Assembly (NCBI GenBank): GCA_945885655.1
Contig: CAMCZE010000004.1
Coordinates: 1 to 32,016 of the forward strand
Source: Bacteriovorax stolpii
Lineage (GTDB): Bacteria > Bdellovibrionota > Bacteriovoracia > Bacteriovoracales > Bacteriovoracaceae
Length of the DNA stretch: 32,016 nucleotides
Direction of reading: 5' to 3'
Shown: piece by piece, positions 23,439 to 30,167 of the stretch
Layout of the letters: each line of letters starts with the position of its first letter
Numbering within the stretch: the first letter of the stretch is position 1
Made by a program: the position numbers and the translations under genes
The notes under the pieces: model-generated
The model's input: the letters and a program-made list of their open reading frames with translations, nothing else
Database searches by the model: none
Told to the model about the DNA's origin: nothing

Positions 23439-24530
23439 TTATCTAAAAACGTAAAGCCTATTTCGTGAAGAATACAAAGTGAGGTACTCATCAGTGATGA
23501 CAAGATCAGAGAAGATAGAAGAGTAATCATAACCTAAAGCAAAGGAATCGATGACAGTCAATGTAAGGGGATCAATTGCACGAAGGTAACCATCAAAACT
23601 TGCAGCTACGATAGTATCCTTCCACCAGGTCACTGCACTCACTGGTTGTTTAGAGATCTTAACTCTTTTTAATATCTCTCCACCTAAACCCATAATGACC
23701 ACTTCTCCATCATTTGTTCCTAGAAGAAGTTGTTGTCCCCTTATAAAGGGATGGGCCATGACACTGACATTAAAACTGCGAGAGATAGCACCACTATCTG
23801 GATTGATGGCCTTCAGTTCCCCTGATGGAGAACCCATAATCAATAATCCTTGAGCAATAAGAGGATTTAAATCAGCATCCACAAACTTCTGCTGATCGAC
23901 AACCTTTGTCTCCCAAAGGAGAAGTCCCTCTTCGACTGAAAGAGCACCCACAAATCCGTCAGCAAAACCAATAAAGATTTTATTACCAGAAACGAGTGGT
24001 CGACTGGTTCTTTGAAAAGTTGTTGTGACAGGAACGGCACGTTTGTACACCCAAAGAACTTTTCCTGTCTCAGCATCTAAATGAACAATCTGATGTCCAC
24101 GAAGATAGATAAGGAGTTTATCATTATAAAAGAAGGGAGCACTCTCAATTGGCGCCATGAGATCAATGGCATACTTAAGTTTTCCCGTTAGATAATGACG
24201 AACAAATAAACGACCGTTTAGTCCACCATAGGCCACATGATCTTTAAAAAATTCTACAGGTCCACCCAGCGGGGTTTTATCATTTTTTGACCAGATAGTA
24301 CGTCCAGTTTCTACATCGTAAGCCGTCATCACACCGGACATGCTTCCCATATAAACCAGATCATTAAAAACACGAGGAGCACCCAAACCAATGGGCAAGT
24401 TGCCGGTGACATATTCAGGATCAAGATTTTTTGCCCAGTTCAGGGAAAAAAATCGTTTTTCCTGAGCAGGAGCATGAGGCCTAAACTGCCCACATGACGC
24501 AAGAAAAAGAATGAGGAAAAAAAATTTCAT
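23439..24530 (-). CDS. bamB: BamB-like outer membrane assembly lipoprotein (PQQ-type beta-propeller)
   Basis: 363 aa; lipobox MKFFFLILFLASC; repeated propeller motifs (DVETGRTIW, DAETGKVLWVYK, SVEEGLLLWETK, NPDSGAI); directly after a YfgM-like gene. Confidence 0.8.
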   Translation of the reverse strand: MKFFFLILFLASCGQFRPHAPAQEKRFFSLNWAKNLDPEYVTGNLPIGLGAPRVFNDLVYMGSMSGVMTAYDVETGRTIWSKNDKTPLGGPVEFFKDHVAYGGLNGRLFVRHYLTGKLKYAIDLMAPIESAPFFYNDKLLIYLRGHQIVHLDAETGKVLWVYKRAVPVTTTFQRTSRPLVSGNKIFIGFADGFVGALSVEEGLLLWETKVVDQQKFVDADLNPLIAQGLLIMGSPSGELKAINPDSGAISRSFNVSVMAHPFIRGQQLLLGTNDGEVVIMGLGGEILKRVKISKQPVSAVTWWKDTIVAASFDGYLRAIDPLTLTVIDSFALGYDYSSIFSDLVITDEYLTLYSSRNRLYVFR

Positions 24531-25207
24531 TGAGCTAATTTTGAAAGATAAAGTTTGGCAAGTTTAGCATACTCATCATTAGGATAATTACTCACAACTG
24601 TATCAAACTGAGTTTGTGCCTTCCCTTTTTCACCTTTTAACAAATACAACCGACCTAATTCAAGATTAACTTTTGCAGGTAAAATCCCATCTTTAGTCTG
24701 AGCAAGTTTTTCTAAAAGGACCATGGCCTCTTCAACTTTATTTAATTTTTCTAAAACAACTGCCAATTGCATAGTTACAAAAAAAGCACCTACAGGATGT
24801 TTTGTAGTGCCAGCAATTTTACGAAGCACTATTTCTGCTTGAGAGTATTCACCTTTTTCATAAAGAAATTTTCCCATCTCAAGAACAACTGGCAACATCA
24901 CCGGTGTGGATTGAACGGATGAATCCAGTTTTTCAAACTGACTGACTAGTTCTGTCGGTGCTATTTTCCCTGTCTTGGCCTCAGACCATACTTTATTTTT
25001 GAATTCAAAAACTTTTACTGAATCATTAAGATCCGAAGAGCGCTGAGATTGTCTCCATAAAAAATATCCAGTGACTCCAACTAAAATGGCCACTAATAGT
25101 GCAAAAAACACTTTTCTCTTTTCATAAATAAGATGACCTAAATCTGTCTTATTAAGGGTCTGCTCTAGAGTTTGAGATTGATCGGTAGCTTGAGTCACTT
25201 CGCTCAT
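24527..25207 (-). CDS. YfgM-like TPR membrane protein
   Basis: 226 aa; one N-terminal TM helix (VFFALLVAILVGVTGYFLW) then TPR-like helices; 4-nt overlap with the bamB-like gene. Confidence 0.75.
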   Translation of the reverse strand: MSEVTQATDQSQTLEQTLNKTDLGHLIYEKRKVFFALLVAILVGVTGYFLWRQSQRSSDLNDSVKVFEFKNKVWSEAKTGKIAPTELVSQFEKLDSSVQSTPVMLPVVLEMGKFLYEKGEYSQAEIVLRKIAGTTKHPVGAFFVTMQLAVVLEKLNKVEEAMVLLEKLAQTKDGILPAKVNLELGRLYLLKGEKGKAQTQFDTVVSNYPNDEYAKLAKLYLSKLAQ

Positions 25208-25296
25208 TGGTCGGTCCTTTTGGTACTAAATTCCCTAGAAGTTTAAAATCTGCGAGCAACGTTGTCAAAGATCAAAAGATTTCTTAGACTTAAGTT

Positions 25297-25785
25297 ATGA
25301 AACAAAAAATTCTTTTTTTATTTATGCTGCTTCCCTCACTCACTTTTGCTGCGGACTTAAGAGGCCGTCTTGGAGTAGGTGCCACGAATCAATTAGCGAC
25401 TGATCTACCGGCCCTTTCTTTTAAGATTCAACAGTCTAAAACCTTTGCCCTTGGTGGCCTTCTTGGATTTAAATCAGACGAGGACAACACTCTTTACGGA
25501 ATCGGGCTCAAGGCGTACCGCATTATATTTGATGAGCCGCAGCTCAATTTTTATTTTGCTGGGATGCTGGCCACGCAAACTTATTTAGATAATGAAGACG
25601 ATGTTAAAAATGGCTACCAGGTCGATGGAACCATGGGCACTGAGTTTAACTTCACAGGACTTGAAAGTATCGGCTTTAGTTTTGAGTTTGGTGTTAGTCT
25701 TCGCACGACCGATCCAGATCATGGAAGATCCATTCAAACCTTGGGTGACAACTTCCTAAAAGCTGCCGTTCACTTTTATCTTTAA
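25297..25785 (+). CDS. outer membrane beta-barrel-like protein
   Basis: 162 aa; signal peptide MKQKILFLFMLLPSLTFAA; alternating amphipathic strands, ends in AAVHFYL. Confidence 0.55.
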   Translation: MKQKILFLFMLLPSLTFAADLRGRLGVGATNQLATDLPALSFKIQQSKTFALGGLLGFKSDEDNTLYGIGLKAYRIIFDEPQLNFYFAGMLATQTYLDNEDDVKNGYQVDGTMGTEFNFTGLESIGFSFEFGVSLRTTDPDHGRSIQTLGDNFLKAAVHFYL

Positions 25786-25795
25786 CCAAAAAAAT

Positions 25796-26599
25796 ATGGT
25801 GCTAAAAAGCCTTGTCCTCATTTTTTTCTTTTGTACGACTATCTCAGTGATGGCCCAATCGACTGATCAAGTTTTACAAGAGATGGAAGATGATACAACT
25901 TTAGGCAGTGACATCTTTTCTGATTTTAATGAAGATCTAGAATCAGCTCAAGTTTTAGAAGACGAACGTTTTTATCGTTACGGCCGTTTTTTTTCCGTTA
26001 ACCTTGGTGGAGGGGCAACAACTTTCACCGGTAATCGTGGTAAGGCCTACGATGACAATCACCCGACTTTCCATCTCTCTGTTAACTATTTTTTAGATTT
26101 TCAAAAAGCTATCACCCTCGGTATTGAATATTCAAAACACACCATGGTTCTTGATACTGTCGTCAATGGCTTCCCAGATAATGGCCCCTTGGGTGCGGTC
26201 GTCACAGATATGACACGCGTTTTTGTGGGTTATAAATATTATGTTGATACCACGGACTTAGGTACGGCCATCACATATTCAAATCCTCACTTCATCGGTC
26301 GCCTTGAATACTGGTACCAAAGCAATAAATTTATTGATCAACCGTCTATACCTCGCGAAAAAGGTGGCGGTATTGGAACAGGTATCGGAGCGGGATTTGA
26401 ATTTCCTGTAGTTTTAAAAGAATCTTATATCAGTGTGGAAGGTCTTTATCATGTCGTGAACTTCTTTGATAAGTTCACCCAGAATTACCGCCAGGCCTTC
26501 AATGCCGACGGTACTACCGTTGAAGGTAGTACTTTTGGAATTGATGACCTGACAGGAAATGCGATGTCACTTATCGTGACTTATAACTTTACTTGGTAG
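25796..26599 (+). CDS. outer membrane beta-barrel-like protein
   Basis: 267 aa; signal peptide; strand-rich sequence ending [10 protein letters not shown] (terminal aromatic). Confidence 0.6.
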
Positions 26600-28424
26600 A
26601 GGCAAATTTCTTTTCAACTTTTTTCATCCTTCGTTCAATGTCCGACGAAGTTCTAAAAATCAAATGAACCGGCGTGTTCGTAAGATCAAATTCACGACGG
26701 ATCCCATTGACTAAATATTTCCTGTAATTCTCAGGAATCCCTTGAGACTTGTTACTAAAGAGTAGGAACGTCGGAGGACTCGTCTTAAGCATTGAAGCAT
26801 ATTTCACTTTGAAACGAACACCGTTGGTTTTTTTAATGACCACAGGGTTCTGATCAGTAAGATTCTGAAGGCATCTATTTACTGCACCTGTTGAGATCTT
26901 ACGGTTACGAACAACGATTGTTCGTTTGACGGCTTCACGAAGATAATTGATGTTACGGTTTTTCTGAGCAGAAATAGTCACTAGCTGACAAAAACCTAAC
27001 CAAGGCACATCATCTCTAAGATTTTGTAGCCATTCTTTTTTCTTTTTAGCATCAGCAAAAGTTTCTCTTAAGAGATCAATCTTATTTAGACAAATGATGA
27101 TGGACTTACCTTTTTCCAAAGCAATGTCACAAAGACGACGATCTTGGTGAGTAATGCCTAAGGTCGAATCTACCATAAAAAGCACAATATCAGATTCAGT
27201 AATTGAACGAAGAGAGCGATAAACTGATTGAGTTTCAATAAAACCATCAACAAGCTTAGACTTACGAATTCCAGCAGTGTCGACGATTTTTATCGAGCGC
27301 CAACGGTTGATCTGATGAGCATGCTCAAGATTTTCAACTTCTTCTGCCGGCCCATTCCAGTTTTTTTCTATTTCTGAAACGATTTGTTTTTCCGTAAAAT
27401 AATCCTCTCCTACATTAGACTCATCAAAACTAAAATCATTTGAACCTGTAGGTTCCACGATATCAGCGAATGCATCTTCAGTTGTTTGACCAAACTCTAA
27501 ATAGATTTTTTTCTCTTCTTCTGTTAAATCTTCCTCATCAACACTAAAATCTACATGTCCTGCATCTTGATACTGTTTGATCTCATTATAAATATCTGCA
27601 TTATCTTTTCTGAATGGATTTTCTTTCGAACTTAACATCTCAACATCTGGCCCAAAATAAAGGTCAATATAACCTTCAATAGGATCAACTGTCGTTCCAG
27701 CAATTTCTGAAACAAGAGCTCGCTGAGCTCCTACTAAACAATTAAGAAGAGTTGATTTTCCAGCATTTGGAGCACCGATAATGGCCACTGAAGAAACGAC
27801 ATCATGACGTGGGGTCACGCCTTTTTGCAAAAACTCCTCATCTTCTTGACCTTGGAACTCACGAGACATTTTTGTCAGACGTTCACGAAGATCATAAAAG
27901 CCACGGTTATGTTCAGCAGATACAATCATCATATCTTCTTCATCAAGGCCTAACTTATAAAATTCGTACTGATCTCCTTCTTGTTTTTCAGTGTCAAACT
28001 TGTTGAGGATGAGCCAAAAAGGTTTTTTAGTTGATTTGATATAATCACAGATGCCTTTGTCAAAAGGCAAAAACCCTTCTCGAACATCTACTATGAACAA
28101 TACAAGATCTGATTCATCAATGGCGATTTTTGCATGCTCTGCCATGATATTAAAAAAAGGATCAACGTTGTTTTTTTTACGTGCATCGATTTCTATCTTT
28201 TCGGGATAAAAACCACCTGTATCAACAAGAATAAGTTCTTCATGAATGGTTTCCCCTTCATAGACTTCATCCAACGTCATGATGCCGTAATGGCGGTCTC
28301 GAGTGACACCTGGCTGATCGTGAGTCATGGCCAAATGTTGTTTTTTCATCAATCGGTTAAAGATGGTACTCTTCCCGACATTGGGTCTCCCAATAAGGGA
28401 AACGACCAGAGATCTTTTATTCAT
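26589..28424 (-). CDS. der: GTPase Der with an unusual insertion in G domain 2
   Basis: Two G domains ([18 protein letters not shown] and [22 protein letters not shown]) and a C-terminal KH-like region ([10 protein letters not shown]). ATG 28424 overlaps the era stop by 4 nt. Confidence 0.93.
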
Positions 28425-29386
28425 TTTTTCCTCCACACACGAGCTGAATTTTGTGTTCGTGGTAGGCCTATCTCATCTAATACGTAATTGTTATTAAACC
28501 ATTTTGGCGAAACTTTAACGTGGAGATTTAAATGCACCTTCCCACCTGTCATCGCTTCAATTTTTTTACGAGCATTGATCCCTATTTCTTTAATCACTGA
28601 ACCACTTCTTCCTACAACAATCGCTCTCTGAGAAGGACGGTTAACAAGAATAGAAGCAGAAATGTGCGAGGCACCAGGACTCATATCATCTTTTTTTACA
28701 TCTTTATATTCATCAATTACCACTGCCACTTCATAAGGAAGTTCCTCTTGCAAAAGACGGAATGCCTGCTCCCGAATGTATTCAGTGGCAAAAAATCTTT
28801 CACTCTTATTTGATACGTCACCGGCCGGATAAAGATGTGGCCCACTGATGGCCACGTCTTGGATAGCACCAGTAAGTTCGTGGATGTTATGTCCATCTTT
28901 GGCGCTGATCACAAAATGTTTTTCAATGCTTGGGCAAATTTCTTTGAGTTGAGCAACAATGGGAGCAACGTTAATAGTTTCTTTGTTTAAAAGATCGGCC
29001 TTTGTGAAGATAATCCATGTACGCCCAAGAGGAGCATCAAAGTTTTTCATAAACTCTTTAAATTCTAAAACCATATCAGTCATGAGGTCCACTAACACAA
29101 AGTTAATATCCACTCCTTCAGATCCCATTTGGGCCTGGCCATTCATACGTTTATTGATCTCCTGACTCGTAGAGTGAACTCCCGGAGTGTCGACTAAAAC
29201 CACTTCCGTGCGATCAATTGTAAAAGCACAATGAAAATTATTTCTTGTGGTCTGAGGCTTAGAACTTACAATTGAGAGATCAAAACCCAAAAGGTGGTTA
29301 ATGAAAGAACTTTTCCCAACGTTGGGTTTTCCTAATACGGCGATCATGATCGCTTTATTGTGCGGATGTTGGTCAGTTAATAACAT
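28421..29386 (-). CDS. era: GTPase Era
   Basis: [32 protein letters not shown] and the C-terminal KH domain [23 protein letters not shown]. Confidence 0.95.
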
Positions 29387-29397
29387 ATAAAATCTCC

Positions 29398-30147
29398 TTA
29401 AATGAGGTTCTGTTTTAGTGCAAGAGAGGCCAGCTCTTTTTCCCCTGTTTTTTTTGAGGGATAAATGCCAGACCCTAAAAGTATGTCGTTAACCCAGAGT
29501 TTAACTTCAAATCCGCCTTCAACGGGTAAAGATGTATATAATGGTAATTTTTTATATTTACCCAAACTCGCTTCCTGAAGTTTTGATTTAGCATCAAATT
29601 GCTCCAAAGCATTCATATCAAAGGCATCTGAACGGTAGGCCTTAAACAGGGCAAGGACCCAGAGACGAGCAAACTCTAAACCCTGGAAACGATACACCTG
29701 GGCCAGGAGCGCCTCAAATGTATCTGCTATCGTTGCGTCTTGCTCAAAAAGCTTACGTTTAAATTCGCCCTTACCCACAAGGATCAGCTGATCTAGCTTA
29801 ATTGAGCGTGCAATCTTTGCTAATGAACTTTCATTTACAAGTGAGCTTCTACGTTTTGAGAGACTCCCCTCTTTTTCATCTGGAAAACGATGGTATAGTT
29901 CGTCTGTAAGAATCAGTTGCAAAACGGAATCACCTAAAAACTCCAATTGCTCCTGATGAGGAATCTGGTATTCATGAGAAAAAGAAGTATGAATAAAGGC
30001 CTTCACTAACTCTTCTTTGGGAATAGTGAGATAATGGGTCTTTTTAAACGTCTCAAAATCTGGGTGTAGGAAACAGTGATTGAGTACTTCTGGATTACGC
30101 TCTTCGAGCAGAGTTTGTAATAAACTATGGAAGTGAGGATGTGACAT
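29398..30147 (-). CDS. rnc: ribonuclease III
   Basis: QLEFLGDSVLQL and IADTFEALLAQVYRFQG catalytic motifs plus a C-terminal dsRBD. The ATG at 30147 follows AGGTG. Confidence 0.92.
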   Translation of the reverse strand: MSHPHFHSLLQTLLEERNPEVLNHCFLHPDFETFKKTHYLTIPKEELVKAFIHTSFSHEYQIPHQEQLEFLGDSVLQLILTDELYHRFPDEKEGSLSKRRSSLVNESSLAKIARSIKLDQLILVGKGEFKRKLFEQDATIADTFEALLAQVYRFQGLEFARLWVLALFKAYRSDAFDMNALEQFDAKSKLQEASLGKYKKLPLYTSLPVEGGFEVKLWVNDILLGSGIYPSKKTGEKELASLALKQNLI

Positions 30148-30167
30148 AATCACCTAAGGTCGTCTAT

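Follow-up and report, generated by a model that had tools for sequence, protein, structure and literature searches.

The question raised by the der (engA) locus of Bacteriovorax stolpii is what a long acidic segment is doing inside the second G domain (GD2) of an otherwise ordinary Der, a GTPase that is essential in bacteria where tested and whose core spacing is strongly conserved. The stretch of DNA analyzed (hereafter the window) comprises an entire contig, 32,016 nucleotides long. Its Der scores 408.9 bits against the NCBIfam model GTPase_EngA (TIGR03594; cut-off 306.7), in two stretches that are split by the insert, and contains two MMR_HSR1 G domains in tandem with the G1, G2, G3 and G4 motifs present, in agreement with the original prediction that both G domains are otherwise intact, as well as a C-terminal KH domain (PF14714; 82.8 bits vs. 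27.3, residues 513-595 in GTG-start numbering). A search for a second Der locus gave no match at E ≤ 1e-20 in this genome, and an arm-free second copy was rejected, none being present among the matches at this cut-off in genomes of the class Bacteriovoracia. Because the G motifs and the KH domain are intact and the gene is single-copy, the arm-bearing protein is, judged by its sequence, the working Der of the genome, and GTP-dependent binding to pre-50S particles would be expected of it as a trait of the family to which it belongs by sequence.

The der reading frame is open over 615 codons, counted from the listed GTG at 28436, but the start is likely to be the ATG at 28424 (Table 1), because this codon has a GGAGG 5 bases upstream (28434-28430) and forms an ATGA overlap with the era stop. 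The gene order rnc-era-der, then a same-strand TPR_21 (YfgM-like) gene and a BamB-like propeller gene (window 23439-30153, minus strand), resembles the E. coli yfgM-bamB-der cluster, and era adjoins der in many relatives as well. Two plus-strand ORFs (25297-25785 and 25796-26599) lie inside the cluster, convergent to der; both have signal-peptide-like N-termini and no Pfam match.

Table 1. Coordinates of der and of the parts of its product in the window.
Feature	Position	Strand	Remarks
der (engA) CDS	26589-28424	minus	611 aa from ATG; frame, profile match, start signals
GD1 (first G domain)	27840-28424	minus	G motifs present; β2-β3 hairpin +8 aa relative to 21
GD2, first part, including β2 strand (stalk of the arm)	27651-27809	minus	
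Acidic arm, residues 259-375	27300-27650	minus	117 aa; net -23; predicted mostly disordered; between β2 and β3 of GD2
FRKDNADIY (FRxNN-type motif)	27588-27614	minus	12 residues into the arm; predicted helix, moderate confidence
GD2, second part: β3, DTAGIRK (G3), NKID (G4)	26910-27299	minus	
C-terminal KH-like domain (PF14714)	26652-26900	minus	

Between GTTVD and DTAGI of GD2 the window Der has 139 residues, compared with the usual 21 (a common trait of Ders rather than a criterion of the curated model), and the composition of the arm (D/E 28%, K/R 8%, net charge -23) bears out the acidic insert that had been noted between the two switches of this domain. Its site was placed correctly; its limits, put at 27312-27647 and about 112 residues, have moved to those in Table 1. 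When 301 proteins were sampled from a genome of the same genus, just 2 contained an equally acidic stretch of 117 aa. The frame is uninterrupted, as had been noted, and the insert is present in frame in all same-genus genomes, which excludes an assembly or frameshift artefact; a pseudogene was rejected too, on its in-frame presence in 95 class genomes and the purifying selection described below. Neither a known domain nor a transferred element could be recognized in the arm, which had no Pfam match (four arms searched) and no PDB match at E ≤ 1, and all strong matches (E < 1e-20) in an arm-only search of relatives were Der.

AlphaFold2 models of two lineages of the class (the window Der and a distant member) gave pLDDT values of about 80-95 for the domains and about 40-70 in most parts of the arm, which showed a few short helices. 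In the window Der, strands β2 (249-256) and β3 (375-382) are well formed with the arm between them, and in the models the arm therefore leaves from the tip of the β2-β3 (interswitch) hairpin and projects outside both switches; the predicted position between the two switch motifs is retained, but not as an insertion within the switches. A structure search found the model to fit ribosome-bound Der (YphC) 9bsl_W best (TM 0.92 by target length). The window Der shares with Der/EngA/YphC (TIGR03594; PDB 9bsl, 3j8g, 2hjg, 1mky) two full G domains, the C-terminal KH domain and an Asn of the K+-dependent type in both P-loops, and it differs from the aligned PDB Ders and from 35 Ders of the phylum in having the GD2 β2-β3 arm.

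Alignment of Der across Bdellovibrionota recovered the insertion, not as a one-off but as a class-wide feature of variable length. It is present in all 95 Der proteins read from Bacteriovoracia, a class of predatory-type bacteria (+6 to +159 aa; among the genomes surveyed, class and order amount to one family), and these proteins still score as Der by the family model. In the other families of the phylum the spacing from GTT to DTAG is exactly 21 in 35 of the 35 Ders read, a count that includes three proteins of family f3 (L042, L044, L055) counted by hand from LTTRD and excludes L056-L058, which resemble MnmE. The same f3 proteins, outside the class, have LTTRD in GD2 and DSQG in place of DTGG in GD1, so their GD1 may be altered in catalysis. 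The longest Ders outside the class carry their extra length between the two P-loops and not in the GD2 hairpin. In a sweep of 290 genomes of the phylum, the matches to the Der model listed outside the class were continuous (unsplit), and two-part matches were essentially confined to the class, with one exception (G248). Full-length bacterial Ders of the PDB, aligned to an outgroup Der, show no gap at the insert site (five alignments listed; Bacillus, Coxiella, Neisseria), and for Der of Thermotoga and of E. coli the chain coordinates leave no space for an insert. The expectation that such an insertion would be uncommon is thus upheld for the phylum and the PDB Ders, which our survey covered; similar insertions may have arisen independently in other phyla. 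The Val found for the Arg of GTTRD, to which attention had also been drawn, is present in the window GD2 (GTTVD) but cannot be linked to the insertion, since GTTVD, GTTID and GTTTD are widespread in the phylum without it. Two proteins of genus g10 (L028, L126) have GATVD rather than GTTVD in switch I of GD2, the first Thr of the motif being replaced by Ala.

The remaining GD2 spacings that were measured are constant within the class, at 26 from P-loop to GTT and 65-66 from DTAG to NKxD, and the distance from P-loop 1 to P-loop 2 varies moderately. The β2-β3 hairpin of GD1 is extended by +2 to +14 in the class (mostly +6 to +8) and by +4 in some sister families; co-growth of this hairpin with the arm was rejected, the GD1 increase being small and the correlation weak. 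All 95 class Ders carry the insert, none does outside the class (phylum and PDB Ders), and the class is monophyletic with full support in a mixture-model tree, so the sequence data fit a single origin of the arm on the stem leading to the class, its length having changed repeatedly since then. A quick tree placed short arms at the base of the class and suggested stepwise growth from short to long; in the more careful mixture-model tree, however, short arms are not basal and arm lengths shift repeatedly. The AU test mildly rejects uniting long arms in a clade (p-AU 0.043 and 0.007).

Within the genus, pN/pS is 0.30 for the arm compared with 0.18 for GD1 and 0.11 for GD2+KH, and dN/dS of the arm is about 0.12, values that are rough because synonymous sites are near saturation and that point to purifying selection on an arm constrained yet looser than GD1 and GD2+KH. 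Synonymous divergence in the arm (pS 0.83) is no lower than in the rest (0.79), which gives no sign of a hidden nucleotide-level element. The sequence is largely unalignable between genera. All 93 arms that reach 10 aa carry a net negative charge (mean -0.23 per residue), the two shortest of the class (+6, +8) are not acidic, and a charge-hydropathy plot assigns all 88 arms of +40 or more to its disordered side. One protein (L098, genome G109) has an arm that consists for the most part of a near-simple EQER repeat; this arm is acidic all the same, and its length is similar. Among the 65 non-redundant arms of +40 or more, short arms being left out, 46 contain an FRxNN-type motif (a mean of 2.1 and at most 9 in shuffles) and 18 an [ILVM]Yxx[VLI]F motif (0.4 in shuffles), a significance that is somewhat overstated because the patterns were composed after the arms had been read. 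The position of FRxNN, nearly always 12 or 24-26 residues away from where the arm starts, was not selected for in this way. The half made up of GD2 (after switch II) and KH carries a charge of about +18 to +21 in the class vs. +10 outside it, and this core is basic to the same degree in short-arm and long-arm members. When the tree is taken into account, core basicity is only weakly related to arm charge (r = -0.21, p = 0.04; this is one of four tests).

According to PMC13278734, published structures place GD1 of ribosome-bound Der close to the L1 stalk; GD2 occupies P-site space, and KH is directed towards the PTC. Our preferred reading, which we hold only tentatively, is that the arm is an electrostatic RNA-mimicking element that would tune docking of the basic GD2-KH half on pre-50S particles; it is favored over a partner-docking arm and over tolerated loop growth because an acidic disordered segment beside a basic GD2-KH matches the arrangement in Hfq, whose disordered acidic C-terminus attaches to the basic core, where it competes with RNA and helps release (PMC5606850). 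On the class stem, the GD2 interswitch hairpin of an ordinary single-copy Der would have been extended into an acidic, mostly disordered arm acting as an RNA-like electrostatic competitor in cis. In free Der the arm would lie across GD2-KH, the strongly basic half of the protein; it would be displaced once GD2-KH docks correctly at the P-site/PTC region of pre-50S, and its rebinding could help to reject wrong RNA and speed release after GTP hydrolysis, with the FRxNN helix as the putative specific contact point. The single fixed insertion point with other measured GD2 spacings constant, acidity kept despite almost free length and sequence, predicted disorder in both lineages, purifying selection, the fixed-offset FRxNN, the basic GD2-KH half and the best fit to ribosome-bound Der are all consistent with this, as is the location of GD2. 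The Hfq precedent goes as far as a lineage-variable, acidic and (in the arm, by prediction) disordered appendage on the basic RNA-binding core of an RNA chaperone; the Hfq appendage is a terminal tail with demonstrated autoinhibition, whereas the Der arm is an internal loop of a GTPase domain, 117 aa long with motifs, and is likened to it by predicted disorder and acidity. We infer the contact of the arm with GD2 and KH, and the arm is of low confidence in the model. The equally basic core of short-arm members and the weak charge covariation argue against the RNA-mimicking arm, and some members, two of which have non-acidic arms, manage with just +6 to +16 residues, so that Der in the class can do without a long acidic arm.

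The conserved FRxNN suits a partner-binding arm at least equally. A possible, if doubtful, alternative is therefore that the FRxNN helix and IYxxVF-like motifs serve as binding sites for a lineage-specific assembly factor, for a basic r-protein or for a GAP, and that acidic spacers supply reach and charge complementarity. Both motifs far exceed their shuffled counts, and regulators of Der/EngA are known, YihI binding GD2 and KH of E. coli Der and PipX binding GD1 of EngA in cyanobacteria (PMC8696166). No YihI was found in any of 57 class genomes (the E. coli control was positive), which leaves room for another regulator without showing one; the partner is hypothetical, and roughly one in three arms of +40 or more lacks FRxNN. 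Like the arm in our preferred reading, YihI (PF04220, GAP-like for E. coli Der) is a hydrophilic regulator acting on GD2-KH (PMC8696166), but it is a separate protein and the arm is an internal segment of Der. Fusion of YihI in cis was rejected, no PF04220 or other Pfam match being found at E ≤ 1 in four arms.

It is unlikely that the arm is mostly tolerated loop growth, in which a hairpin tip free of ribosome clashes accumulates acidic disordered sequence of little function. The range of lengths, the poor alignability between genera, the EQER arm and the repeated length changes on the tree would all be expected of such growth, but the arm is under apparent purifying selection, is almost universally acidic with a motif at fixed offset and occurs in every class member read, and there is no comparable growth in the other measured GD2 spacings. 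Very improbable is a spacer or anti-association device, an arm projecting from the 50S to bar 30S or tRNA sterically or electrostatically until Der leaves, whose working would depend on length and charge, not on sequence, and which would suit GD2 in P-site space at the subunit interface (PMC13278734), since some members have very short arms and the direction of the hairpin tip in the lineage is assumed.

Lineage variation in Der length is already known, the Der family including variants in the linker and the KH/C-terminal region, with f and non-f groups (cited in PMC8696166); the interswitch arm would add to these. In the open-licence literature we found no account of a Der with an insertion between its switches, nor anything relevant on Der insertions in Bdellovibrio or Bacteriovorax. 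The arm provides a clean class-level marker for Bacteriovoracia, and a single GD2 loop that has grown by up to 159 residues with other measured spacings fixed is a natural experiment on GTPase-ribosome docking, its length series making the role of the arm testable with chimeras. A bolder proposal, which we consider rather unlikely, is that the class has rebuilt the control of Der, release and rebinding of an RNA-mimicking interswitch arm on the ribosome replacing a YihI- or PipX-like regulator. If true, the essential 50S-assembly GTPase of a whole class would be regulated by its own arm and not by an external regulator.
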